Origin: Rhodospirillaceae bacterium
Lineage (GTDB): Bacteria > Pseudomonadota > Alphaproteobacteria > Rhodospirillales > UBA2165
DNA: 64,000 nt
Assembly: GCA_018649725.1 (NCBI GenBank)
Contig: JABIHH010000029.1
Span: 1 to 64,000, forward strand
Direction: 5' to 3'
The notes under the pieces were generated by a model. That model ran no database searches. It saw nothing but the letters and a program-made list of their open reading frames with translations, and was not told the origin of the DNA. Positions within the stretch are counted from its first letter, which is position 1. The number at the start of each line of letters is the position of its first letter. Position numbers and translations under genes: made by a program. Positions 1,999 to 21,295 of the stretch are shown one piece after another.

Positions 1999-2289
1999 TT
2001 GGATAAAGCCACCGTCAACAACATCGCAAAATTAGCGCGCATTAAAGTGTCTGAAGCTGAGACCGAGAGTCTCGCGGGCGAGCTAACAAATATTTTCGAC
2101 TGGATCGAGCAATTGAGCGAAGTTGATACCGATAATGTCGAGCCGATGACGAGTGTCACCGATATGGTGATGCCGGCGCGCGAGGATAAAGTGAACGATG
2201 GCGCAGATGCCGAGCGCGTGCTGAAAAACGCACCGGACCTTCCGGCCAATGGCCAAAACTTTTTCACCGTGCCGAAGGTGATTGAGTAA
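1999..2289 (+). CDS. gatC: Asp-tRNA(Asn)/Glu-tRNA(Gln) amidotransferase subunit C
   Basis: A 96-residue protein with the GatC signature: [16 protein letters not shown] near the N terminus and [11 protein letters not shown] in the middle, ending in the usual [10 protein letters not shown]. GatC is the small belt that holds GatA and GatB together in the complex that amidates misacylated Glu-tRNA(Gln) and Asp-tRNA(Asn). The start is TTG at 1999, fixed by length and by the family alignment; a GAAAG stretch precedes it. Its stop codon TAA overlaps the gatA ATG by one base, so the two are translationally coupled. First gene of gatCAB. Confidence 0.95.
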
Positions 2290-3782
2290 TGACCAAGGAC
2301 AAAAAAAGTCTTACCAATCTTACAATTACTGAGGCGCGGGATGGCTTGGCCAAAGGTGATTACTCATCAGTTGATTTGACCGAAGCGCATATCAAAGCGA
2401 TTGAATCGGGGCGGGATCTCAACGCCTTTATTACTGAAACGCCTGAGCTTGCTTTGGAGCGCGCCAAGGCCTCCGATGAGCGGCGCGCCTCTGGTGAAGC
2501 GGCAAGTGGCATGGATGGTATTCCAATCGCGGTGAAGGATTTGTTTTGCACCGAAGATGTGCAGACGACAGCCGGTTCTCACATTCTGGGTGGCTTCATA
2601 CCGCCTTATGAATCTACCGTTACGCAGAATTTGCGGGATGCGGGTGCGGTCATGCTGGGCAAAACCAATATGGATGAATTTGCTATGGGCTCGGCCAATA
2701 TCACGAGTTATCACGGCGAGGTTAAAAACCCGTGGGAGCTCGATGACGGCAAGACCCGCGTGCCGGGCGGCTCTTCCGGTGGTTCAGCCGCCGCTGTCTC
2801 CGGCCATTTAGCGATTGCGGCGACGGGTTCTGATACCGGCGGCTCGATCCGTCAGCCCGCTTCTTTTACCGGTATCGTCGGCATGAAGCCGACCTATGGC
2901 CGCTGTTCCCGCTGGGGCATGGTGGCGTTTGCCTCTTCGCTTGATCAGGCGGGACCGATGACCCGCTCTGTGCAGGATGCAGCGATCATGCTGCAGAGCA
3001 TGGTGAGTCACGATAAAAAAGACTCAACCTCGGTTGACCAGCCGATCCCAAATTTCGAAGCGGCGCTGACCGGCGACATCAAAGGTTTGCGCGTCGGTAT
3101 TCCGGCTGAATATCGCCTCGATGGCATGCCGGGCGAGATCGAGACTCTCTGGAGCCAAGGCATCGAGTGGTTGAAAGCAGCGGGTGCAGAACCGGTTGAG
3201 ATTTCTCTGCCGCACACCAAATACGCCCTGCCGACTTATTATATTGTCGCGCCCGCCGAAGCGTCTTCGAATTTGGCGCGTTATGACGGCGTACGATACG
3301 GCCTGCGTGTTGAGGGCGACAGCTTGGACGAGATGTATGAGAATACGCGTGGCGAGGGTTTCGGGCCGGAAGTGCGCCGCCGCATCATGATCGGCACCTA
3401 TGTTTTGAGCGCGGGTTACTATGATGCCTATTACGTCAAGGCGATGAAGCTCCGCACGCTGATCTTGCAAGAATTTCAAAAAGCTTTTGAGAGTGTCGAC
3501 GTCATGTTGACGCCAACAGCCCCCTCGGCGGCTTTTGCCCTCGGCGAGAAAATGGACAATCCTGTGCAGATGTATCTGAACGACGTCTTCACCGTGCCCG
3601 CTTCGCTCGCTGGTCTTCCCGCCATATCGGTACCGGCCGGCCTGTCCGACGACGGTTTGCCGCTCGGTCTTCACCTCATTACCAAACCGTTTGATGAGGA
3701 AACGCTGTTCCGGGTTGGCGGTGTGTTGGAAGAGGCAGCGGACTTCACAGCTCAACCGAGCTTCCTTGGAGGCCAGTCATGA
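2289..3782 (+). CDS. gatA: Asp-tRNA(Asn)/Glu-tRNA(Gln) amidotransferase subunit A
   Basis: A 497-residue amidase-signature protein, the glutaminase subunit that releases ammonia from glutamine for transfer to misacylated tRNA. The Ser-cisSer-Lys triad is visible: Lys in PIAVKDLF (about residue 84), the glycine/serine loop [13 protein letters not shown], and the nucleophile region [13 protein letters not shown]. Length is normal for GatA. It starts one base inside the gatC stop and its TGA overlaps the gatB start by four bases (ATGA), the classic gatCAB arrangement. Confidence 0.97.
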
Positions 3783-5230
3783 GTTACTTAATCGAAGGTG
3801 AAACCGGTGATTGGGAAGTTGTGATCGGCTTAGAAGTTCATGCGCAAATCACGTCCAAGGCTAAATTATTCTCAGGTGCCGCGACCGAATTTGGCGCTGA
3901 ACCTAACAGCCAAGTCTCGCTGGTTGATGCCGCCATGCCGGGCATGCTGCCGGTGATCAATGAGCTTTGTATTGAGCAGGCGGTGCGCACCGGACTTGGT
4001 CTCAATGCCAAGATTAATCTGCATTCGGTGTTTGAGCGTAAAAACTATTTCTACCCCGATCTGCCGCAAGGCTATCAGATCTCGCAGTTTCTCGAACCCA
4101 TCGTCGGCGAGGGCGTGGTGACCCTCGATATGCCGGAAGGACCCCGTGACATTGGTGTCGAGCGTCTCCATATGGAACAAGATGCCGGCAAATCGCTACA
4201 CGACCAGGACCCGAAGTGCACCTACATTGATCTCAATAGATCCGGTGTTGCGCTGATGGAGATTGTCTCCAAGCCCGATCTTAGAAGTCCCGCCGAAGCC
4301 GGTGAGTATGTCCGGAAGCTCCGGGCCATTGTACGCTATCTCGGCACCTGTGACGGTAATATGGAGCAAGGCTCGCTACGCTGTGATGCCAATGTCAGCG
4401 TGCGCCCGGTCGGTGAGACCGAGCTTCGCACCCGGGCTGAAATCAAGAACATCAACTCCGTGCGTTTCGTCATGGCGGCGATTGAGCATGAGGCCGAGCG
4501 CCAGATCGAGCTCTATGAAAACGGCGGCGAGGTTGTCCAGGAAACCCGCCTCTATGATGCTATTAAAAATGAGACGCGCAGCATGCGGTCGAAAGAAGAA
4601 GCGCATGACTATCGCTATTTCCCGGATCCCGATCTGCTGCCGATCGATCTCGAGCAATCCTTCGTCGATAAGATCAAGGCGAGCTTGCCCGAACTGCCGG
4701 ACGCCACGCACCAGCGCTTCGTGGATGATTTAGGTCTTGCCAATGACGATGCCGTCACCTTGGTGGCCGATAAAGAGACCGCCGATTTTTTCGAGGCTGT
4801 CGCTTCAGCGAGCGAGCCCAAGCTCGCCGCCAATTGGGTGCTGCACGAACTGTTCGCCATTCTCAACAAAGACGGCCTCAGCATCGCCGATAGCCCGGTC
4901 TCATCTGCGGCTCTTGGCAAACTTGTCGCCCTCATCGCCGACGACACCATATCGGGCCGTATCGCCAAGGATGTCTTTGAGGTGATGGTCACTGATGGTG
5001 GGGACCCCGAACAGATCGTCGAAGATAAAGGCCTCAAACAAATCACCGACACCGGCGAGATCGAAGGCATGATCGATCAACTCATCAATGACAACCCCGA
5101 CCAAGCTCAACAATACAAAGACGGCAACACCAAAGTCGCTGGCTGGTTCGTCGGCCAAATGATGAAAGCCTCGCAAGGCAAAGCCAACCCGCAAATGGTA
5201 AACGACCTGCTCAAGAAGAAGCTGGGTTAA
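3779..5230 (+). CDS. gatB: Asp-tRNA(Asn)/Glu-tRNA(Gln) amidotransferase subunit B
   Basis: A 483-residue protein with the GatB kinase-like cradle: [20 protein letters not shown] at the N terminus, [16 protein letters not shown], the [13 protein letters not shown] block and [12 protein letters not shown], then the helical YqeY-like tail ending [10 protein letters not shown]. GatB phosphorylates the tRNA-bound Glu or Asp and then amidates it with ammonia channelled from GatA. It is coupled to gatA by a four-base overlap. No obvious hairpin terminator follows; intergenic palindromes begin about 40 bp after the stop. Confidence 0.97.
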
Positions 5231-10553: not shown

Positions 10554-11015
10554 TTAAAGCTCTTTTGCTTGTGAGGTTAGTTTTTCGAGGAGACGGTCAA
10601 GGTCGGTGAGGTCTTGATCGCTCATGACGGACATGAGGTTTTCTTCGAAAGCGCGGCCGGCGGGGACGATTTGGTCGTAGATCGCTTGGCCCTCCGCCGT
10701 GAAGCTTAAGACCGAATTGCGCCGATCGTTATCGTCAGGCTGGCTTTTAATCAGACCCATTTCCATAAGTTTTGCGACAGCGCGACTGACCTGAACTTTA
10801 TCCATCGCGGCGTGCTCGGCGATGCTGGAGGCTGTGCAACCGGGCTCGCGACCGGTTGCAGCTATCACCCGCCATTGCGGAATGGAGATGCCAAAACGTT
10901 CGGCATAGGTCTTGGAAAAAGCCGTGCTGACGGATTTTGCCAGGACAGCAAGACGGTAGGGGATGAAGTCTTCGAGGTGGAAGCTGTCTGGCGGCGTTTG
11001 AGAATCGTCTTTCAT
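10554..11015 (-). CDS. MarR-family regulator, divergent to the homogentisate operon
   Basis: A 153-residue winged-helix protein. The DNA-reading part is visible: ISIPQWRVIAATGREPGCTA, SIAEHAAMDKVQVSRAVAKLMEMGLI and the wing QPDDNDRRNSVLSFTAEG. MarR proteins are usually repressors released by an aromatic ligand. It is transcribed away from hmgA, and the 74-bp gap holds a perfect inverted repeat (11032-11057), so control of hmgA and of itself is likely. It differs clearly from the duplicated MarR pair at 21.3 and 46.0 kb. Confidence 0.88.
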   Translation of the reverse strand: MKDDSQTPPDSFHLEDFIPYRLAVLAKSVSTAFSKTYAERFGISIPQWRVIAATGREPGCTASSIAEHAAMDKVQVSRAVAKLMEMGLIKSQPDDNDRRNSVLSFTAEGQAIYDQIVPAGRAFEENLMSVMSDQDLTDLDRLLEKLTSQAKEL

Positions 11016-11031
11016 ACGAAAATACTAATTG

Positions 11032-11057
11032 ATAATAGTTGCAAATGAAACTATTAT
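11032..11057. promoter_or_regulatory. Perfect inverted repeat, probable MarR operator for hmgA
   Basis: ATAATAGTT at 11032-11040 and its exact complement AACTATTAT at 11049-11057 are separated by eight bases. The dyad sits in the divergent gap between the MarR gene (start 11015) and hmgA (start 11090), as expected for an operator controlling both. Confidence 0.7.
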
Positions 11058-11089: not shown

Positions 11090-12397
11090 ATGGATAGCGT
11101 TGTTTCAACGGAGCTGGTCTATCAGACCGGTTTTGGTAATGAATTTGCGACAGAAGCTTTGGCTGGCGCGTTGCCCAAGCGCGGCAATTCACCGCAAAAG
11201 GCACCGCACGGTCTTTATGCGGAACTGCTGAGCGGCACGGCTTTTACAGTACCCCGCGAGACCAATCGCCGAAGTTGGTTCTATCGCATTCGCCCCTCCG
11301 CCATGCATCAGCCTTTCGAGCAAATCGATAGTGGCCTGGTCAAGGGCGCCCCCTTTGACAATCAGCCGGTCTCGCCCAATCAAATGCGCTGGAACCCGCT
11401 GCCGATGCCGGAAGCGCCGACCGATTTTATTGACGGCCTGGTGACCATGATGGGCGGCGGCGATGCCTCGACCGGCCAAGGTCTGGCCGTTCACCTCTAC
11501 ACCGCCAACGCATCGATGACGGATCGGTTTTTCTTTAATGCTGATGGCGAGATGCTAATTGTCCCCGAACAGGGGCGGCTGACGATCCATACCGAAATGG
11601 GCGTGATCGATATTGTACCCAATGAGATCGCCGTGGTGCCGCGCGGGATTAAGTTTCGTATCGAGGTGCCGGACGGCATGTCACGCGGCTATGTCTGCGA
11701 AAACTATGGTGCCGCACTTCGCCTACCATCGCTGGGCCCGATCGGCTCGAACGGTCTCGCCAACCCGCGAGATTTTGAAACGCCAATCGCGGCTTATGAA
11801 GACCGTGAAGGCGATTTTACACTGACGTGTAAAATGGGCGGCAATCTCTGGTCGGCCAAGATCGGCCACTCGCCTTTGGATGTCGTCGCGTGGCATGGTA
11901 ATTACGCGCCTTATAAATATGATCTCGCTGATTTCAATGTCATCGGCTCGATCAGCTTTGATCACCCGGACCCGTCGATCTTTACCGTACTGACCTCGCC
12001 GTCGAATTCTGCCGGTACAGCCAATATCGATTTTGTCATCTTCCCGCCGCGTTGGATGGTGGCCGAAGATACCTACCGGCCGCCGTGGTACCACCGCAAT
12101 GTGATGAGCGAGTTTATGGGGCTTATTCATGGCCAGTATGATGGCCGCAAAGAAGGCTTCGTGCCGGGCGGCTCCAGCCTGCACAATTGCATGTCACCGC
12201 ATGGGAATGATGCCGAAGTTTATGAGACCGCCAGCACGGTCGAGCTTGCACCAACTTATATCAAGGACACCATGGCGTTTATGTTTGAGACCTGCATGGT
12301 CTACAAGCCAACTAAATTCGCCATGGAGACCGAGCTGATGCAGAAGAATTATTTTGAATGCTGGCAAGGTTTGCAGAAACATTTTCCCGGTAAATGA
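11090..12397 (+). CDS. hmgA: Homogentisate 1,2-dioxygenase
   Basis: A 435-residue cupin-fold iron dioxygenase that opens the ring of homogentisate to maleylacetoacetate in tyrosine and phenylacetate-type catabolism. Iron ligands fall at H335, E341 and H371 within [12 protein letters not shown] and MSPHG, the same numbering as the human enzyme. The N terminus [14 protein letters not shown] is also typical. GGGAGCGAG precedes ATG 11090. It is the first gene of a plus-strand operon; its stop overlaps the first possible fahA start by four bases. Confidence 0.97.
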
Positions 12398-13740
12398 CAG
12401 GTATAAAAAGCATGACACTTTTAAATGAAACCCATGATCCCAATTTAAAATCATGGGTCGCGTCGGCCAATGAAGCGGGTTCAGATTTTCCGATCCAAAA
12501 CTTGCCCTTCGGCATCTTTCAACGCCACAGCAATCCAGAGGGCACCAACACGCTACCCCGCGGCTGCGTTGCCATTGGTGATCAAATCCTGGCCCTGACG
12601 CATGTTTTAGCCAAAGGCCTGTTAACCGGTAAAGCTGAGGCTGCCGCCGAAGCGGCGCTGGGATCGACGCTAAATCCTTTGATGGCGCTGGGCGCTGAAC
12701 ATTGGTCGGCTTTGCGCTCGCAATTATCAGCCCTGTTGCGTGAAGGCGGCGCTGAAGCCGAGTTGAAAGAGAGGCTTATTCCAATGTCGGAAGTCGAGAT
12801 GTGTCTGCCGGTGGATATCGGCGACTACACGGATTTCTATTCCTCTATCAACCACGCGACCAATGTCGGTAAATTGTTTCGCCCGGACAATCCATTACTG
12901 CCCAATTACAAGCATATCCCAATTGCCTATCACGGGCGCTCTTCTTCTATTCGTGTTAGCGGCACGCCGGCCAAACGTCCGATGGGCCAGTTGAAAGCAC
13001 CCGATGCAGAGCTGCCGGTTTTAACTGCCTGTAAGCGGCTTGATTATGAAACCGAGCTTGGCGTCTTTGTTGGTCCAGGCAATGAGCTGGGTGAAACCAT
13101 TCCGCTTGATGAAGCAGAGGATCATATTTTTGGCTTTTGTGTATTGAACGATTGGTCGGCCAGAGACATTCAAGCCTGGGAGTATCAGCCGCTTGGGCCG
13201 TTCCTGGCGAAGAATTTTGCCACAACAATCTCGCCCTGGATCGTCACCATGGAGGCGATGGCACCTTATCGCCAAGGCGTTTATCAGCGCCCGGCGGATG
13301 ACCCTCAGCCTTTGGCCTATTTAACATCTGATGCTCATGAAAAATCAGGTGGCCTTAATATTGTGCTGGATGTCGCCATTGCGACGGAAAAAATGCGCAG
13401 CGAGGGGCAAGCGCCGATGGTTGTCGGCACGCCAGTGTTTAAAGATATGTATTGGTCAGTCTTTCAAATGCTGACCCATCATGCATCCGGCGGCTGTAAT
13501 CTTCAGCCGGGTGACTTTTATGGCTCCGGCACAATTTCCGGCACGTCTAAGGATCAGCTTGGCAGTCTTTTAGAGGCAACAGTTGGCGGCAAAGAAACGC
13601 TCGAGTTTCCAAATGGCGAAACCCGTACTTTCTTAGAAGATGGTGATGAGGTTGTGATGCGCGCTTGGTGCGAACAAGACGGTGCGGCCAGAATTGGTTT
13701 TGGCGAATGCCGGTCGGTTATTTTGCCGGCTTCGGGATAA
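12394..13740 (+). CDS. fahA: Fumarylacetoacetase
   Basis: A 448-residue enzyme that splits fumarylacetoacetate to fumarate and acetoacetate, the last step of the homogentisate pathway. Metal and active-site blocks are visible: [40 protein letters not shown] with the two metal-binding glutamates, and [19 protein letters not shown]. An ATG at 12394 overlaps the hmgA stop, while the ATG at 12412 (MTLLNETHD) also fits; the overlap favours the first. No maleylacetoacetate isomerase gene lies in the operon. Confidence 0.96.
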
Positions 13741-13749
13741 TTTCTGGCG

Positions 13750-16716
13750 ATGAAGTTTTCTCTCATCTTGCTGGGGCTAAGTTGGTTGCTCAAACTCACC
13801 GCCTGGCGTCATGCATCTTTTCGGGCGCGGCTGAAAGAGAAAGACCTTGTCGCGCAAATTAAGATCGCCGATGACAGTCGAGGTCGGTATTTTATTTTTA
13901 AAGGTGGCAAGCTGAGCTCAATGGCAGGGGTCCATTCCAATCCCGATGTTTGTCTGGCCTTTAAAGATGTAGATATAGCCGTGAGCCTCTTGATCCCGCC
14001 GGTCGACTACCAGCAGCAGATCGATGCCCAGAAAGAGTTTAATCTCACCATGACCGGCGATGATGCCGATGCTTATTGGTTCGCTCAGACCATCATGCGG
14101 ACCCAGACCATCGATTGGAAATTTGGCATAACCTTGCCGGACGGCTCCAAGCGTCTCACCAGCAACACCAATGGCGGGCCGATCCAGGTCTATGTCAAAG
14201 ACGATAAGATCGTCCGCATCACGCCGATTGAATTTGATGACAGTGATCCCGGCACCTGGACGGTCAAAGCGCGTGGCAAGTCGTTTACGCCGCCGCGTCA
14301 AACCTCGCTCTCGCCGCATGGCCAAAACTGGAAATCGATGGTCTATTCGCCGGACCGCATTTTGCAGCCGATGAAGCGGGTGGATTTTGACCCGGACGGG
14401 GAGCGCAATCCGCAAAACCGGGGCAAATCTGGCTATGAGCCGATCAGCTGGGACGAAGCTTTGGATATTGTCGCCGGCGAGATCCAGCGGGTGAAGCGGG
14501 ATTATGGGCCGGGCGCGATGGCCTCAAGCCATGGCTCGCATCACACCTTTGGCAATGTCGGCTATTACTTGAGCGCCAATTTCAGATTTATGAATTTGGT
14601 CGGCCATACCGAGGTGCATCATAATCCGGATAGCTGGGAAGGCTGGTATTGGGGCGGGCTGCATCATTGGGGGCATTCGCTCCGGGTCGGTATGTCGGAG
14701 AATTATGGCACGGTCGAAGATCTCATGAAGCATTGTGAGATGATTGTCTTTTGGTCAAGCAATCCTGAAGCCACCAGCGGCAATTACGGTTCCCACGAAG
14801 GCTCGATTCGGAGGCAATGGCTGAAAGAGTTGGATGTCGAGTTCGTCCACATCGATCCCTTCTACAATGACACAGCCCAGATGATGGGCGGCAAGTGGCT
14901 GGCCCCCAAACCGCAGACCGATCCGGCGCTGGCCTTGGCGATTGCCTATGTCTGGATGACCGAAGATCTCTATGACAAAGACTATGTCGCCAAGCGCACC
15001 GAGGGTTTCGATAAATGGCAGGCTTATGTGTTGGGCGACGAGGACGGTGTGCCCAAAACACCGGAGTGGCAGGCGGGCGAGACAGGTATTGCGGCGAAAG
15101 AAGTACGTGCCTTGGCCCGGGCTTGGGGCAATAAGAAAGTCTATTTGTCAGCAGGCGGTGCAGGTAATGGCTACGGCGGGGCGTGCCGTAATGCGACCGG
15201 TATTCAGTGGTCGCGCATGATGATTTGCTTGATGGCAATGCAAGGCATCGGCAAGCCGGGCGTCAATCTCGGCAATATGCAGCGCGCCACACCGCTTGAT
15301 CTGCATTTCTATTTTCCGGGCTATGCCGATGGCGGTATCTCGGGCGACCTCACCGGCACGGCGTTGGCAGTGGCACTCTATCAGCGCATGCCGCAATTGC
15401 CGACGATCAATACGACGACCCAGAAAATCCCCCGGCTCCATTTGCCCGAAGCGATTAAAGGCGAGACCGTCGAAGGTTATGCCTGGGATGGTAAATCGAT
15501 CGAGGGGCAGTTCAACAAGATTGTCTATCCAAAGCAGGGCCAAGCACCGGTCAAGATGCTCTATAAATATGGCTCGTCGATGTTCGGCACAATGAGTGAT
15601 ACCAATCGCTACGTTAAAATGTATGGCTCAGAGAATTTGGAGTTCGTCGTCAATCAGTCGATCTGGATGGAGGGCGACACTTCATTTGCTGATATTATTT
15701 TGCCCGCCTGCACCCATCTGGAACGCACCGACATCAGTGAATGGGCCGGCATCGGCGGCTATACCCATCATGGCCAGAACCAGCTCAATCACCGGGTCAT
15801 TACCTTCCAGCACAAATGTATCGAACCTTTGGGCCAGTCTAAATCGGACTATCAGATTTTCCTTGAGATCGCCCAGCGCCTAGGGCTGGGCTTGTTGTTC
15901 TCGGAAGGTATGAGCGAGCTCGATTGGGCGAAGCGCCAGTTTGAAGCATCTGATTTGCCGAAGCATATTTCGTGGAAAAAGTTCATCAAGAAAGGCTATT
16001 TCGTTGTGCCGCCCTTAAAAGAAGAGCTCCGCCCACCGGTTTCGTTCCGCTGGTTTGCGGAGGGGCGCAAAAAGGATGTGCCGGAACCGCATCCTTTGCC
16101 GGCCGATTACACGGAAGAGTTTTTGAAAGGGCTGCAAACCCAATCGGGCAAGATCGAGTTCGATTGCAACTCGCTCAAACGCTTTGATGCCGATGACCCT
16201 GAACGCCCAACCATCCCGAAATATGAGCCGTCCTGGGAAGGGCCAGCTGATGATGCTAGGTTTGAAAAATACCCGCTTTTGATGATGACGCCCCATGCGC
16301 GCTACAGCTATCACAGTCAGGGTGACGGTAAGGATAGTTTTTTAAACGACATTATTGATCACCGGGTTGAGATCGAGGGGCGTTATTATTGGACGCTGCG
16401 TATGAACGATAAGGATGCGGCGGACCGAGGCATCAAAAAGTTTGATCTAATAAAAGCACATAATGAGCGGGGCGCGGTTGTCTGTGCGGCTTTTCCGACC
16501 AGCCGCCTGGCCTCGGGTGTGTTGCATGGCTACGAGTCTTGCGCGATTTATGATCCAATGGGCGAGCCGGGTAACTCAGTTGATCGCGGCGGCTGTCTCA
16601 ATCAATTGACGCCCAAACGCATGCAGATCAAGCAATCTCATTCCATGGCAACGTCTTCGGCTTTGGTCGAAGTTGAGTTGTGGGATGGCGGGTCAGAATT
16701 GGCGGCAGCGGAATAA
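13750..16716 (+). CDS. SCP2-like domain fused to a pyrogallol transhydroxylase-like molybdopterin enzyme
   Basis: A 988-residue protein. After a hydrophobic N-terminal segment (residues 3-16), residues about 22-125 resemble an SCP2/sterol-carrier domain. From about residue 140 it matches, as I recall the family, the large subunit of pyrogallol-phloroglucinol transhydroxylase over its full length: [20 protein letters not shown]-like [35 protein letters not shown] and [19 protein letters not shown]. The catalytic His and Asp and the Ser ligand of Mo are kept with the same spacing (H264, D294, S295); the catalytic Tyr is probably Y521 or Y525. No cysteine cluster for an Fe-S centre is present and the electron-transfer small subunit is not encoded nearby. 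It lies 9 bp after fahA and 11 bp before the P450. A polyphenol hydroxyl-transfer role is inferred. Confidence 0.8.
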
Positions 16717-16727
16717 GGGAGAGTGAA

Positions 16728-17954
16728 ATGAGTGACAAACAAGCAGCCTTGGATTTTGATATCAAGAAAATCGATCAGGATTTTCTCGATAATCCTTTTC
16801 CAGTTTATAAAGCTATGCGCGAAAATGACCCGGTGCACCTGAATCCCGACGGCTCTTATTTTTTGACACGTTATGAAGATGTGGTCTTGTCGCTCCGCCA
16901 TCCCGGCATGAGTTCGGATAAGAAAGTTGACTTTAAGCCAAAGTTTGGCGATGGCCCGCTTTATGTCCACCACACGTCGAGCTTGGTTTTTAATGATCCG
17001 CCAGTGCATACCCGGGTGCGGAAATTGTTATCGGAAGCCTTCACGCCCCGAAAACTCGCCGAGTTGGAGCCGGTCATTGAAGGGATCATCGACCGTCTGC
17101 TGGACCGCTTGGCCGGACAGGGGGAGTTTGATGTTGTTAGCGATTATGCGCTGGCCCTGCCGACCGAGATTATTGCCGATATGTTGGGTGTGCCGGAGGA
17201 GCATCGCCACAAGCTGCACAATTACTCCAATCTGATTTTAGGGGCGCTTGATCCGGTGGTCCCGCCGGAGAAAATCGCGGAAGGTCATGCCGCCGTTGAG
17301 GAATTTGGCGCGCTACTGGAAGAGCTGATCGCTGATCGCCGTAAAACACCAAAGGGCGGCGAGATGGGCGAAGTGTTGGCGGCGTTAATTTTTGGTGAGG
17401 TCGATGGCGAAAAACTAACGCCCGTCGAGCTGGTGCAGAACTGTATTTTCCTTTTGAATGCGGGGCATGAAACAACCGCCAATCTCGTCGGCAATGGCAT
17501 TAGTATTTTACTCGACGCGCCGGATCAAATGCAGCGTTTGCGGGGTGACCCGAGCTTGATCAAAACAGCCGTCGAAGAGTTTCTGCGCTATCAAAGTCCG
17601 TTGCAAATCGGTAACCGCAAAGCCACGGAAGATGTTGAGTTCGGTCCTGAAGGCAGCAAAGTTGTCATTCCGGCGGGCTCATTTATTCACACCTCCATTG
17701 GCGCGGCCAACCGCGACCCGGAAACTTTTGAAAACCCTGAAGCGGTCGATATAGGTCGACGCCCCAATCCGCAAATCGCTTTTGGTATGGGCAAGCATAT
17801 CTGCATGGGTAATACGCTGGGCCGCATCGAAGGTCATGTCGCGGTCGGCAAATTCGTTGAGCGTTTCCCAAATCTGCGTGCCGCTGGTGAAAAGCGTTTC
17901 CACGGTCGGGCGCGCTTTCGCGGGCTTGATGTCTTGCCGGTGGCTGTCTCATAA
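16728..17954 (+). CDS. Cytochrome P450
   Basis: A 408-residue soluble bacterial P450. Heme block AFGMGKHICMG with the thiolate ligand C359; I-helix oxygen-activation motif AGHETT at 245-250; K-helix ExxR in EEFLRYQ (E284, R287). The start at 16728 is chosen because AAGGGAGAGTGAA precedes it, while an upstream in-frame ATG (16680) lies inside the molybdenum enzyme gene. It needs electrons from a ferredoxin and reductase, not found here. Being fourth in the hmgA operon, it may hydroxylate an aromatic or prenyl-type substrate that feeds the ring-cleavage route; this is inference. Confidence 0.93.
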   Translation: MSDKQAALDFDIKKIDQDFLDNPFPVYKAMRENDPVHLNPDGSYFLTRYEDVVLSLRHPGMSSDKKVDFKPKFGDGPLYVHHTSSLVFNDPPVHTRVRKLLSEAFTPRKLAELEPVIEGIIDRLLDRLAGQGEFDVVSDYALALPTEIIADMLGVPEEHRHKLHNYSNLILGALDPVVPPEKIAEGHAAVEEFGALLEELIADRRKTPKGGEMGEVLAALIFGEVDGEKLTPVELVQNCIFLLNAGHETTANLVGNGISILLDAPDQMQRLRGDPSLIKTAVEEFLRYQSPLQIGNRKATEDVEFGPEGSKVVIPAGSFIHTSIGAANRDPETFENPEAVDIGRRPNPQIAFGMGKHICMGNTLGRIEGHVAVGKFVERFPNLRAAGEKRFHGRARFRGLDVLPVAVS

Positions 17955-17969
17955 GCTATTGCCCTGCGA

Positions 17970-18713
17970 ATGACTGAATTAATTTCTGACATACTGACGC
18001 TTCATTTTCTTTATGCCCTTGGCATCGTTTTTTTAGGCGGGCTGATGCATGGTTATACCGGTTGGGGCGGCGGCATGGTTATGATGCCACTGATGACACT
18101 GCTATTTCCACCAGTAGAGTCTTTGGGCCTAATTTGTGTCGGCGGCATATTGTTGACGGCTCAAATGTATCCGGCCGCGTTGAGAATTGTGAATTGGCGC
18201 GAGATGCGGCCGCTTTATATTACTCTTCTTATCATGACCCCTATGGGGGGTGTGCTGTTGCTTTATCTGGACCCAGGCCTGGTGCGCCGGATTATTGGCA
18301 TTGCCGTTGTCGTCGCCGCAATTTTAATCATGAGTGGGTGGCAGTATCGTGGCAGACGTGGCGCCTCGGCTGCTGCTGCTTTTGGCTCTGCTGCCGGCTT
18401 GGCAAATGGATTTGCCGGCGTCGGGGGGCCACCTTTTGTGATTTATGTTCTGTCCCATCCGGACGGACCCGGAGTACAGCGTGCCAATATCGTCATTGGA
18501 GCTGGATTACAGATTATGTTGATCACCCTCACCCTCACCGTTACGGGTGCGATTGGTTGGGAAATTTTGGTGAAGGGTGTTATTCTGGCGCCGCCCCAGC
18601 TTATTGCTGGAATGATCGGCGGTAAAATTTTTGCCTTAGCGCCTCAAGAACATTTTAGAAAATTTACTTTGGCCGCGATCGTCGTGCTTGGTGCGTCGGT
18701 GGCACTTCTCTAG
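17970..18713 (+). CDS. TauE/SafE (TSUP) family membrane transporter
   Basis: A 247-residue inner-membrane protein with about seven to eight helices in two similar halves. The opening GGLMHGYTGWGGGMVMMPL and the second-half ANGFAGVGGPPFVIYVL are the paired glycine-rich signatures of the sulfite-exporter TauE/SafE family. Members carry sulfonates, sulfite or organic acids across the membrane. It starts 15 bp after the P450 stop and closes the hmgA operon, so a carboxylate or aromatic acid linked to that pathway is as likely as a sulfur compound. Confidence 0.85.
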   Translation: MTELISDILTLHFLYALGIVFLGGLMHGYTGWGGGMVMMPLMTLLFPPVESLGLICVGGILLTAQMYPAALRIVNWREMRPLYITLLIMTPMGGVLLLYLDPGLVRRIIGIAVVVAAILIMSGWQYRGRRGASAAAAFGSAAGLANGFAGVGGPPFVIYVLSHPDGPGVQRANIVIGAGLQIMLITLTLTVTGAIGWEILVKGVILAPPQLIAGMIGGKIFALAPQEHFRKFTLAAIVVLGASVALL

Positions 18714-18719
18714 CCCGCC

Positions 18720-19526
18720 TTAGTCAAAAAATGCGAGGGTTCTAATCTCGATACTTTCGCGCGGCGGGGCTCCTTCGGGTGTTGTTGGATCATCAAATGA
18801 TGTGTGTGCCGTCATGCGGGCGCGGCCGTCTTTGGCAGAATCCCACACTTTAAAGACGATCGCCTCATCGCGTTTCATCTCCGGATAATAAAACCATTCA
18901 TGATTATCATTGTGCTTAATCTGATAGGTTTGGCCAACGCGGTCAGGATAGCGGCGCTCGGCAATGATTAAGTCACTTTCCGGCAAAGACCGTGCATCAC
19001 AAAAAGCCAGCGGGTTGGTTTGTAGAACATCTTGAATGGGCCGCCAGACCTGCACAACAGCGCAGCGCTTTTTCAAAAGCTCTTCCGCCTCGTCAGGCAG
19101 CACATCACGAATTCGCTGCGGGCCAGACCATTCGGTATAATCGTTATGAACACGTAACACAGGTTCCCGCAAAAGCTTTTCCGCGCGTTTGTCGTCATTA
19201 CCGGTGCGGATGGTGTGATCAAAAATGACCACCCGGGAAGCACCGGTGTGCTTTTTAACGAGGGCTTCCATCTCCGGATAATAGACCGATTGCAGCTCTT
19301 CGCTGTCCAGGAAATCCTGCATTGCGGTCTTGTGCTCGACCAATTCAAAGCCGCTCACTTCGATATTTATCGGCTTGTCCCAGCTGCGTCCATCATGGAT
19401 CGGCATGACGTGGCGATCATAGTTGCCGCTATAGGTTGGCATTTTGGTCACCGCATCCTTGGTCTCATTGACCGGCATGGTGCCATCATCCACACAATAG
19501 GTGAGCTCTGCTTCCACTTGGTTCAT
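18720..19526 (-). CDS. CmcJ/NvfI family oxidoreductase
   Basis: A 268-residue protein of the CmcJ/NvfI family, related to the Fe(II)/2-oxoglutarate-type fold. Typical blocks are RVHNDYT, AVVQVWRPI, FYYPEMKRDEAIVFKVWDS and HTSFDDP followed by RESIEIRTLAFFD at the C terminus. Members act in cephamycin C-7 methoxylation and in fungal meroterpenoid biosynthesis; bacterial homologues are mostly uncharacterised. AAGGACAGCAAG precedes the ATG. It lies 52 bp after the acyl-CoA ligase gene in the same direction and probably forms a two-gene operon with it. Confidence 0.8.
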   Translation of the reverse strand: MNQVEAELTYCVDDGTMPVNETKDAVTKMPTYSGNYDRHVMPIHDGRSWDKPINIEVSGFELVEHKTAMQDFLDSEELQSVYYPEMEALVKKHTGASRVVIFDHTIRTGNDDKRAEKLLREPVLRVHNDYTEWSGPQRIRDVLPDEAEELLKKRCAVVQVWRPIQDVLQTNPLAFCDARSLPESDLIIAERRYPDRVGQTYQIKHNDNHEWFYYPEMKRDEAIVFKVWDSAKDGRARMTAHTSFDDPTTPEGAPPRESIEIRTLAFFD

Positions 19527-19578
19527 CTTGCTGTCCTTAGTTCTGGTAGACTATGCCCTACATTTAGGGCGCGTGGGG

Positions 19579-21096
19579 CTATTTCGCAACCATTTCCCGA
19601 ACTTCATATTTCAAGACTTTTCCCATGGCATTGCGCGGTAGTTCGCCAACAAAATACACCGCTTTCGGATGCTTGAAGCGGGCCAGTTGATCTTGGAAGC
19701 GACCCAGAAAGTCACTTTCTGTCAAAGTGGCATTTTCCTTCAGCATCACCACTGCAACCGGGACTTCGCCCCATTTTTCATCTGGTTTGCCGACTACAAC
19801 GCCGTCTTCGATATCTGCCATTTCATGGATGAAGGCCTCGATCTCGGCGGGGTAGATGTTCTCGCTGCCTGAATTGATCATGTCTTTCTTACGATCATTG
19901 ATCCAGACGTCGCCGTCCTCATCTTGATAGCCGATATCGCCGGTATAAAACCAGCCATCGCGCAGGGCTTCTTTGGTGGCTTCTTCATTGCCCCAATATT
20001 CATAGAGAACATTGCCGCCTTTGATAAGGATTTCACCCGACTGGCCCGGCTCGACATCTTTGTCGTCATTGTCAACGATACGCAATTCACAGTGCAGCCC
20101 GACCTTGCCCGCTGCTCCCGGTTTAGCCCAGGCATTCTCAATTTTTTGGTAAATTGCGACCGGCGCCGTTTCCGTCGAGCCATAAACCTGACCAACCGGC
20201 ACGCCGCGGTCGTGAAAAGCCATAATTTGCGGCAGCGGTACGATGGAGGATCCGGAATTGACCAGCCGCAGGCTCGAAATGTCTGTCTCCAACCAGCTTG
20301 GCTGGGCGAGCACGGCCTGCACGGTTGCCGGCACCAATACGACGAGGGTTGATTTTTCTGCCTCAATGCAACGCAAAAGTTCCGCTGGATCAAAGCGGCG
20401 ATGAATGGTGACGGTTGCGCCGACGTAAAAAGCCGGCGTCGTCTGAATGTTGAGCCCGCCGACATGGAACATCGGCAGGGCAGTCAATATGCGATCCGCC
20501 GCGGTCATGTCACTAAAATGGATGGAGTTGAAGGCATTGGTTTGGATGGCGTTCTGAGTGAGCACAGCGCCCTTCGGCCGGCCTGTCGTGCCCGAGGTGT
20601 AGACCAATAAAAAAGGCGTCTCCATCGTGACATGAGGATTGCTGTCATCGCCCTTAGCGCGCTCAATATCTTGTTGCAGGCTTCGCCAATTATTCGCTTC
20701 AAAATCACTGGCGATAAAATCGCAATCGGGCAGCTCGGCTCGAAGACCGTTGCCATGCTCTTCAAACTCGGTATCGCATATGAGAATTTTGGCGGTGGCG
20801 TCCTTGAGAATAAAAAGATGCTCGGGTCCGGCGAGGCGCCAGTTTAGCGGCAGGAATATCGCGCCTAAGCGGGCGCAGGCAAAAAACAGATAAAGCAAAT
20901 CCGGATGGTTCAGCCCCAAAAAGGCGACCCGGTCGCCGCGGCCAATTCCATAGGCATGTTTTAGGGCGCGGGAATGGCTGTGAACTTTTTTAGCAAAATC
21001 CTGATAGGTGATTTCTGCACCTTCAAATCGAATGGCAATTTTGTTAGGCGTAAAATCGGCATTTTTATCCAGCCAGAAGGAAATATCCCCGGTCAT
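19579..21096 (-). CDS. AMP-forming acyl-CoA synthetase (fatty or aromatic acid-CoA ligase)
   Basis: A 505-residue ANL-superfamily ligase that activates a carboxylic acid with ATP and joins it to CoA. Motifs in order: YTSGTTGRPKGAVLT (P-loop-like A3), VYGSTETAP (A5), GWFYTGDIGYQDEDG (A7-A8) and the C-terminal catalytic lysine in RNAMGKVLKYEV (A10). ATG at 21096 is preferred to TTG 21102 two codons earlier. The gene is divergent from the MarR gene at 21296 and is followed by the CmcJ-like gene. The acid substrate is not evident. Confidence 0.9.
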   Translation of the reverse strand: MTGDISFWLDKNADFTPNKIAIRFEGAEITYQDFAKKVHSHSRALKHAYGIGRGDRVAFLGLNHPDLLYLFFACARLGAIFLPLNWRLAGPEHLFILKDATAKILICDTEFEEHGNGLRAELPDCDFIASDFEANNWRSLQQDIERAKGDDSNPHVTMETPFLLVYTSGTTGRPKGAVLTQNAIQTNAFNSIHFSDMTAADRILTALPMFHVGGLNIQTTPAFYVGATVTIHRRFDPAELLRCIEAEKSTLVVLVPATVQAVLAQPSWLETDISSLRLVNSGSSIVPLPQIMAFHDRGVPVGQVYGSTETAPVAIYQKIENAWAKPGAAGKVGLHCELRIVDNDDKDVEPGQSGEILIKGGNVLYEYWGNEEATKEALRDGWFYTGDIGYQDEDGDVWINDRKKDMINSGSENIYPAEIEAFIHEMADIEDGVVVGKPDEKWGEVPVAVVMLKENATLTESDFLGRFQDQLARFKHPKAVYFVGELPRNAMGKVLKYEVREMVAK

Positions 21097-21295
21097 ATTC
21101 AATACTCGTTGTTTTATTGACTATCTTTTATCCAGTTTATCGGGGCATTTACCTAACGTCTATGCCGAGATTGAGATTGGTTGGCGAAATTGCCCATTGC
21201 ACGCTGGATCGCGATTGGATTTACCTCCAAATTAGTATAATTTATCGGACTCTTTACTTTTAAATTTAATTTATTGTTTGATTGGTCTTTTTATC

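Follow-up and report, generated by a model that had tools for sequence, protein, structure and literature searches.

An SCP2-fused, transhydroxylase-type molybdenum enzyme encoded without an adjacent Fe-S subunit gene in a homogentisate operon of Rhodospirillales

Why should a molybdenum enzyme of the transhydroxylase type be encoded within an oxygen-using homogentisate operon, with no gene for its iron–sulfur (Fe-S) small subunit next door? The question is raised by a stretch of 64,000 nucleotides from a Rhodospirillaceae bacterium (contig JABIHH010000029.1 of assembly GCA_018649725.1, positions 1 to 64,000 of the forward strand; hereafter the window), in which the gene for such an enzyme lies between those for fumarylacetoacetase (FAH) and a cytochrome P450, downstream of homogentisate 1,2-dioxygenase (HgmA) (Table 1). 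An earlier note, made from the letters of this stretch alone, had described the protein as transhydroxylase-like, with an SCP2-like domain in front, and had proposed a new route for polyphenols that leads into a homogentisate-type ring cleavage. We are highly confident of the anatomy of the protein and of the gene history of its clade, in which the molybdenum gene appears to have entered an older operon; what the enzyme does there is a far more tentative matter.

The main part of the protein resembles AthL (PgtL), the transhydroxylase large subunit of Pelobacter acidigallici (4v4c), as the earlier note had it. Besides the AhtL-like first domain, Pfam recognizes the Molybdopterin and Molydop_binding (dinucleotide-binding) domains, and the top sequence match in the PDB is 4v4c_A (AthL; 993 bits, residues 135–981), followed by DMSO reductase at 232 bits, with acetylene hydratase (2e7z) at 47.9 bits. 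The full-length AlphaFold model (pLDDT 80.8) overlays on 4v4c_A with a TM-score of 0.92 of the target and 52% identity. AthL numbering is converted to that of the window protein, in the PDB sequence alignment, by an offset of +120 around the active site and +121 at Tyr404/Tyr525. We take the active-site residues of AthL to be His144, Asp174, Ser175 (the Mo ligand), Trp176 and Tyr404, and its pocket to include Arg153, Trp354 and Cys557. Trp296, the counterpart of Trp176, is invariant together with His264, Asp294, Ser295 and Tyr525 in 93 aligned rows, 11 from the window clade (the close orthologues of the window gene) and 82 from other relatives; the count excludes the unfused locus L098 and also L108, which comes from the same genome as L015. 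The spacing of His, Asp and Ser given in the earlier note is therefore that of AthL, which is also the closest group, rather than a DMSO-reductase subgroup lacking the His/Asp pair. Fold, domain order, Ser ligand, the His/Asp/Tyr set and about 50% identity are shared with AthL; in contrast to it, the window enzyme has an SCP2 domain in front, three changed pocket residues and no adjacent small-subunit gene, and belongs to an operon that uses O2. On sequence and model, the protein is probably a Ser-ligated molybdenum hydroxylase of the transhydroxylase type, carrying bis-molybdopterin guanine dinucleotide (bis-MGD) and an SCP2-fold domain, and would be loaded with molybdenum.

The SCP2-like front domain proposed in the earlier note stands on predicted structure, whereas a profile test of this sequence alone did not recover it. 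Pfam gave no match to residues 1–140 at E<=10, a scan of the genome with PF02036 returned neither the window protein nor its paralogues, and PDB sequence searches with the front domain gave no significant match; among 75 homologous N-domains, 18 had an SCP2 Pfam match at E<=1 (best E 0.0018). With the model of residues 1–138, the best Foldseek match had an E of 6.3e-6, and ranks 1–38 all carried sterol-carrier or SCP2-type titles (including UbiJ) or alkylsulfatase/YjcS titles, the C-domain of the latter presumably being SCP2-like. In VIA, the domain reached Z 13.4 with 8af3, a construct of a human sterol carrier protein (111 residues, rmsd 2.4 Å), and Z 13.2 with 1ikt, the SCP2-like domain of MFE-2, and rows with other titles began at Z 7.4; absence of a family from the Foldseek or VIA rows is no evidence against that family. 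The assignment of an SCP2 fold to residues 1–138 is, as a model-based statement, sound. UbiJ, the MFE-2 domain and the alkylsulfatase C-domain share this fold; identities in structural alignments are only about 10–21%, and, unlike them, the window domain is fused to a molybdenum enzyme. A search for the N-domain in the 24 genomes of the window's family gave 64 matches, among which no free-standing copy was found: the two short matches examined (G027 C18 and G014 C480) were rejected, as they run to a contig end or into a molybdenum domain.

The fusion also occurs well outside this operon. A scan of genome contigs yielded at least 578 relatives of any architecture, and the best 80 of these are 61–92% identical to the window protein. 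Among these 80, the alignment starts at query residue 6 or earlier in 73, at residues 15–21 in 6, and at residue 110 in L085, which lies at a contig end. They come mostly from Alphaproteobacteria and also from Moorella, Dehalococcoidia, Desulfobacterales and Syntrophobacterales, of which we take the first three to be anaerobes. The genome that contains the window (3.69 Mb, 87.8% complete) encodes five SCP2-fused copies, that of the window included, and one unfused copy. The fusion therefore does not mark out the aerobic operon, in contrast to the reading of the earlier note; from these sequences, it appears to be a general trait of the family. Window-type copies are 85–92% identical in seven further genomes of the same genus (one being a split copy in G025) and 79–80% identical in five genomes of other genera, and G023, of the same genus, has none. 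No dominant partner gene emerged among 104 same-strand neighbours of the relatives (drawn from 413, with ten near-duplicate loci and proteins of more than 650 aa skipped), the most frequent families being the glyoxalase superfamily (8), short-chain dehydrogenases (6) and FAA hydrolase (2). By title, no open-licence paper was found that describes an SCP2–molybdenum enzyme fusion or this operon. AthLS pairs are reported from Chloroflexi, with no SCP2 domain mentioned in the available portions of these papers (PMC3971608, PMC4959651), and a search of the open-licence literature for transhydroxylase together with homogentisate returned PMC12366328, where, in the part available, the enzyme name occurs only in the reference list.

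The small subunit (AthS) is absent from the locus, as the earlier note had stated. No C..C..C...C motif occurs in the six frames of window positions 1–30000, and no AthS-type match at E<=1e-25 was found on the window's contig (C54). Four AthS-type genes are present elsewhere in the genome, directly after the unfused copy and three fused paralogues, and the fourth fused paralogue (C87) is located at a contig end; the AthS beside the unfused copy matches 4v4c_B with an E of 1e-56, and that beside the C2 paralogue with 7e-71. The fused paralogues that have an AthS (G000 C2, C25 and C81) share the architecture of the window enzyme and 61–67% identity with it and, in contrast to it, are each followed by the gene for the Fe-S subunit and are not part of the homogentisate operon. 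By tblastn, AthS is encoded within 1.2 kb downstream in 67 of the best 80 relatives; eight are cut by the contig end, and the five without comprise three loci of the window clade (L013, L015 and L016), L079, where AthS is upstream, and L091, where it is 2.2 kb downstream. With the four clade loci left out, AthS lies nearby in 69 of 76 relatives, that is, in all 69 that could be judged, 7 not being judgeable. No AthS was found beside the window-type orthologues L013, L015, L016 and L108–L114 (L108 and L015 representing one genome), and at L014 the sequence stops 712 bases downstream, within the P450 gene.

A view of the window clade as the sole group without a partner gene was rejected, since five further copies also have no AthS match, each with 2 kb or more of sequence downstream: G009 C136 (L118), C6 (L119) and C66 (L120), G013 C95 (L121) and G026 C4 (L122); stated contamination is 6% for G009 and 6% for G013. 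In a FastTree phylogeny of 100 rows, the 11 window-type rows group with support 93, and 12 rows, with a fragment from G018, group with support 99. L118, L119, L120 and the pair L121/L122 fall elsewhere on this tree, on which five changes of partner state are needed; a 94-row tree without L118–L122 requires one. Apparently, the small-subunit gene has been lost from next door several times, the window clade being one case. In L119 (2030–6066), the fused molybdenum gene directly follows a gentisate 1,2-dioxygenase-type gene, whose best PDB matches are gentisate dioxygenases, and is a possible, single parallel to the homogentisate case. In L118 (4036–8436), the fused molybdenum gene and a gene for a UbiD-family decarboxylase (262 bits with TIGR00148, over the cut-off) run towards each other, and L121 and L122 adjoin acyl-CoA dehydrogenase genes. 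That the SCP2 domain stands in for the Fe-S subunit, perhaps by holding a quinone, was rejected as an explanation specific to the clade, given that most relatives have both.

The enzyme may still work as two subunits, borrowing a small subunit encoded beside a paralogue, which we consider quite possible, if on the whole doubtful. Its genome offers four such genes, and the clade keeps the positions conserved in the family: departures average 2.0%, against 1.8% in other relatives (range 0.4–4.2%), and only four clade-specific changes occur at positions conserved in 90% of relatives, so that the interface with a small subunit may remain under selection. The gene counts speak against borrowing. 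With the window-type copy set aside, large and small subunits are equal in number in G022 (large/small, that copy included, 3/2), G019 (3/2), G012 (2/1), G027 (4/3) and G020 (3/2), and the two numbers are equal where that copy is absent (G005, G014, G015, G016, G017, G023 and G010, for example 2/2 in G014 and 4/4 in G010); in G021, with four of each, the fourth small subunit is beside a distant molybdenum relative. The clean counts leave no spare AthS, and therefore a dedicated partner has not merely been relocated in those genomes. The counts are uneven in the window's own genome (6/4, one copy being at a contig end), G013 (6/4), G026 (5/2) and G009 (4/1), in part through further partnerless copies, and the remaining genomes are fragmentary. 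The paralogues of the window's genome also share no operator with the homogentisate operon.

That operon was described in the earlier note as aerobic, with a homogentisate dioxygenase and a P450, and profile matches to HgmA, FAH and P450 support this (Table 1). The order MarR–HgmA–FAH–molybdenum gene–P450 recurs in related genomes, at L013–L016, L108–L111 and in G025 (L126), as the note's proposed survey of gene order would look for, and at L113, L114 and L117 parts of the operon are seen as far as the contigs reach. Other genomes of the family have it without the molybdenum gene: MarR–HgmA–FAH–P450 in G005 and G015, HgmA–FAH–P450 in G010 and G014, and HgmA–P450 in G009. The simplest reading of these gene orders is that the molybdenum gene was inserted between FAH and P450 into an older MarR–HgmA–FAH–P450 operon in one Rhodospirillales clade. 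The divergent MarR gene is likewise placed in those clade loci whose contigs extend there, and in G005 and G015. The MarR–HgmA gap contains a near-palindrome that is likely the operator of the operon: it is the single exact site in the window, where a mean of 0.09 such sites is expected at up to three mismatches, and exact copies occur in 11 of 117 loci, ten of them in the MarR–HgmA gap; the eleventh, L093, is the site of the window itself. At L015 it extends to a perfect 12+12 palindrome. No exact copy was found in L014 and L103–L106, nor beside the paralogues in the window's genome.

Compared with L110, the molybdenum gene has a dN of 0.055 and a dS of 1.56, which is near saturation, giving a dN/dS of about 0.035. 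Its dN is the lowest of four operon genes (0.074 for HgmA, 0.083 for P450 and 0.100 for FAH); the N-domain alone has a dN of 0.12. As judged from these substitutions, the protein is under purifying selection.

Table 1. Features of the homogentisate operon and of the molybdenum enzyme, in window coordinates.
Feature	Coordinates	Strand	Basis
SCP2-fused transhydroxylase-type molybdenum enzyme	13750..16716	+	988 aa, ATG start
N-terminal SCP2-fold domain, residues 1-138	13750..14163	+	AlphaFold pLDDT 82.7; Foldseek and VIA matches
AhtL-like domain 1, residues 143-197	14176..14340	+	PF21423 (AhtL-like_1st) 86.2 bits, cut-off 27
His264 codon (AthL His144)	14539..14541	+	alignment with 4v4c_A; H in 11/11 clade and 82/82 other rows
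Asp294-Ser295 codons (AthL Asp174 and Mo-ligand Ser175)	14629..14634	+	alignment; invariant, 93 rows
Tyr525 codon (AthL Tyr404)	15322..15324	+	alignment; invariant, 93 rows
Homogentisate 1,2-dioxygenase (HgmA)	11090..12397	+	TIGR01015 687.8 bits, cut-off 510.75; only copy found in assembly
Fumarylacetoacetase (FAH)	12394..13740	+	TIGR01266 550.8 bits, cut-off 375.3
Cytochrome P450 without fused reductase	16728..17954	+	PF00067 111 bits; haem motif FGMGKHICMG, AGHET
MarR-family regulator, divergent from operon	10554..11015	-	Pfam MarR_2 52.2 bits, MarR 41.4 bits, both over cut-off
Likely operator, near-palindrome TAGTTGCAAATGAAACTA in MarR-HgmA gap	11036..11053	.	single exact site in window
TauE/SafE-type exporter	17970..18713	+	PF01925 84.9 bits; linked only in part of genus

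Variations on the operon were observed in several genomes. In G025 (C75, 6484–9172; L126), the orthologue between FAH and P450 is split over two frames by a frameshift or an assembly error, and in G013 (C106, 5624–6979; L112) a reverse-strand open reading frame of 451 aa interrupts the operon between the molybdenum gene and P450. In G005 (C1, 7594–16601; L106), a different fused molybdenum gene (62%) with its own Fe-S subunit lies on the opposite strand just past MarR–HgmA–FAH–P450, possibly a second association of the fused family with a homogentisate operon. The P450 of the window probably starts at ATG 16728 and not at GTG 16680, to judge from alignments of its orthologues: at six of ten clade loci these align only from residues 12–24, and at L014, L109, L113 and L114 they align from residue 1, in a frame that overlaps the molybdenum gene. 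The TauE/SafE-type gene beyond P450 is also present in L013, L110, L113 and L114. Further on, the minus strand (18720–21102) encodes a CmcJ/NvfI-family oxidoreductase and an acyl-CoA ligase, and both are also found beside the operon in L013, L111 and L113. Upstream of the operon lies gatCAB (1999–5230), and the operon's location looks ancestral because gatA/gatB-like genes are found there in several family genomes.

For the function, we propose that the molybdenum enzyme adds a para-hydroxyl and so yields a 2,5-dihydroxy ring for cleavage, a proposal held tentatively and at somewhat less than an even chance. The gene would have been captured, without a dedicated small-subunit gene, by an existing MarR-controlled homogentisate operon. 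Its product would hydroxylate the ring of an aryl-acetate-type (or longer-chain alkyl) phenol para to the existing hydroxyl, taking the oxygen from water or a second phenol; the P450 would perform another oxidation, complementing this step towards the 2,5-dihydroxy pattern, and HgmA and FAH would then cleave and hydrolyse the ring. The SCP2 domain would probably bind the hydrophobic part of a substrate or a carrier. If, like the Pelobacter enzyme, the molybdenum enzyme exchanged hydroxyls in a redox-neutral way, it could do without an electron-carrying partner. Computation shows the fold, the active-site residues, the fusion, the gene order, the operator and the lack of a neighbouring small subunit in the clade, whereas molybdenum loading, substrate, direction, para position, SCP2 ligand and the order of the P450 and molybdenum steps are inferred. 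The proposal is favoured by the closeness to AthL, the invariant active-site residues, the place of the gene between FAH and P450 under a shared operator, and purifying selection; it also draws on analogy. PgtL and the resorcinol hydroxylase RhL of Azoarcus anaerobius are listed among the Ser-coordinated hydroxylating members of the molybdenum superfamily, and RhL converts resorcinol to hydroxyhydroquinone, as far as the available part of PMC10100899 describes them; the likeness of the window enzyme to RhL is by this description only, and RhL, unlike the setting here, is described as anaerobic. By our own reading of the structures of the compounds, the reactions of RhL and AthL both place a hydroxyl para to a hydroxyl. 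The gentisate-type neighbour of L119 fits para-hydroxylation because gentisate is also a 2,5-dihydroxy ring. The wider partner losses and this neighbour pull different ways, and our confidence is therefore unchanged by them.

A further point in favour concerns the supply of homogentisate. HgmA is present in 19 of 24 genomes of the family. The window's genome has one HgmA and, at 87.8% completeness, no match to 4-hydroxyphenylpyruvate dioxygenase at E<=0.001. This dioxygenase scores over the cut-off in 1 of the 12 HgmA genomes with the insertion (G019; the insertion lies with the operon on one contig in 11 of the 12 and is split over contigs in G027, completeness 57–98%), against 4 of 7 without it, and it is undetected also in the insertion genomes G021 and G022, which are 94% and 98% complete. 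The one-sided Fisher p of 0.038 for its absence with the insertion ignores both completeness, most of the genomes being incomplete, and kinship (G015–G017 are of one genus and seven of the twelve are of another).

Several observations weigh against the proposed para-hydroxylation. Active-site stretches of the full-length model partly have a pLDDT below 50. The AthL pocket residues are replaced in 11 of 11 clade rows (Arg153 by Tyr273, Trp354 by Tyr475 and Cys557 by Ile668). Since Arg153 and Trp354 are each kept in 0 of 82 other rows and Cys557 in 8 of 82, these changes seem to be mostly a trait of the whole SCP2-fused family, whose substrate is unlikely to be pyrogallol; a Tyr at position 475 sets the window clade apart, other rows mostly having His or Phe. 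No redox partner for the molybdenum enzyme or the P450 is seen in the operon, and the redox-neutral argument is soft because AthLS, thought to be redox-neutral, still keeps its small subunit. The nearest sister of the clade (L125; G018 C420, 1–3441), a molybdenum fragment of 77% identity, is outside the operon, with a P450 of 58% divergent upstream instead of FAH. The gentisate-type gene before L119 scores 212 bits with TIGR02272, below the equivalog cut-off of 442, in a genome with the contamination given above. Three of the seven HgmA genomes that lack the insertion (G009, G010 and G014), all of which have the P450, likewise show no detectable dioxygenase, and of the insertion genomes G019 has it and G020 has a 181-bit fragment below the cut-off. 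Its absence was for this reason dropped as proof of a molybdenum route.

The same genomes bring forward a different account, in which the P450 alone makes homogentisate and the molybdenum enzyme serves a separate polyphenol step, sharing only the promoter. Neither the insertion nor the dioxygenase is found in G009, G010 and G014, so the molybdenum enzyme is not needed to explain the latter's absence, and the P450 would be the simpler source. Together with G005 and G015, these genomes carry HgmA–(FAH)–P450 without the molybdenum gene, which makes the P450, not the molybdenum enzyme, the constant partner of HgmA; the polyphenol route of the earlier note is plausible yet unproven. In a sample of 150 genomes of the order, every one of the 12 HgmA genomes in this family encodes the P450, on the contig of HgmA in 11 of them, compared with 1 of 15 elsewhere, on another contig. 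There is also a precedent, OhpA of Cupriavidus pinatubonensis, a P450 that converts 2-hydroxyphenylacetate to homogentisate with no need for hydroxyphenylpyruvate dioxygenase (PMC8449657, in the part available). However, OhpA (Reut_B5278; hmgA is Reut_B3923) is a self-sufficient 2-hydroxyphenylacetate 5-hydroxylase of the CYP116B type with its own reductase, and that part of the paper mentions no molybdenum enzyme; the PDB relatives of the window P450 include none that is both close and informative, and give no hint of its substrate. A P450 acting alone would also leave the clade-wide insertion and strong conservation of the molybdenum gene unexplained. We consider this account unlikely, though it deserves weight.

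Instead of adding a hydroxyl, the molybdenum enzyme might be a reductive dehydroxylase that removes one from a catechol- or pyrogallol-type acid ahead of P450 and HgmA. We take the parent chemistry to involve both addition and removal of hydroxyls. The catechol dehydroxylases of gut bacteria are bis-MGD enzymes; in the available part of the same source, however, they cluster with acetylene hydratase, away from transhydroxylase (PMC7028382). With acetylene hydratase, which represents the dehydroxylases in this comparison, the window protein reaches 47.9 bits, compared with 993 for AthL. A reduction would also call for a source of electrons, no Fe-S subunit is encoded next to the gene in the clade, and the operon uses O2; dehydroxylation is quite improbable. 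That the gene is a non-catalytic or decaying passenger after the loss of its partner, as the missing partner gene and the split copy in G025 (maybe an assembly error) might suggest, is very improbable in the face of the low dN/dS, an active site whose residues do not vary in any of the 11 clade rows, and close copies across the genus and in other genera.

Para-hydroxylation thus remains our preferred reading. In its boldest form, which is a long shot, an aerobe's homogentisate pathway would take a ring hydroxyl from water or another phenol and not from O2, through redox-neutral exchange on an Fe-S-free molybdenum enzyme; the SCP2 domain would deliver long-chain alkylphenols or prenylquinone- or tocopherol-like substrates, and P450 and beta-oxidation would trim the side chain to the acetate stub accepted by HgmA. 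SCP2-fused transhydroxylase-type enzymes look common, the architecture being seen, as far as contigs allow, throughout the best 80 of at least 578 relatives. One loss of the partner coincides with a move into the homogentisate operon, in organisms mostly without a detectable form of the enzyme that usually makes homogentisate. The case poses two testable questions for this family, namely whether hydroxyl transfer needs the Fe-S subunit and which ligand the SCP2 domain holds.

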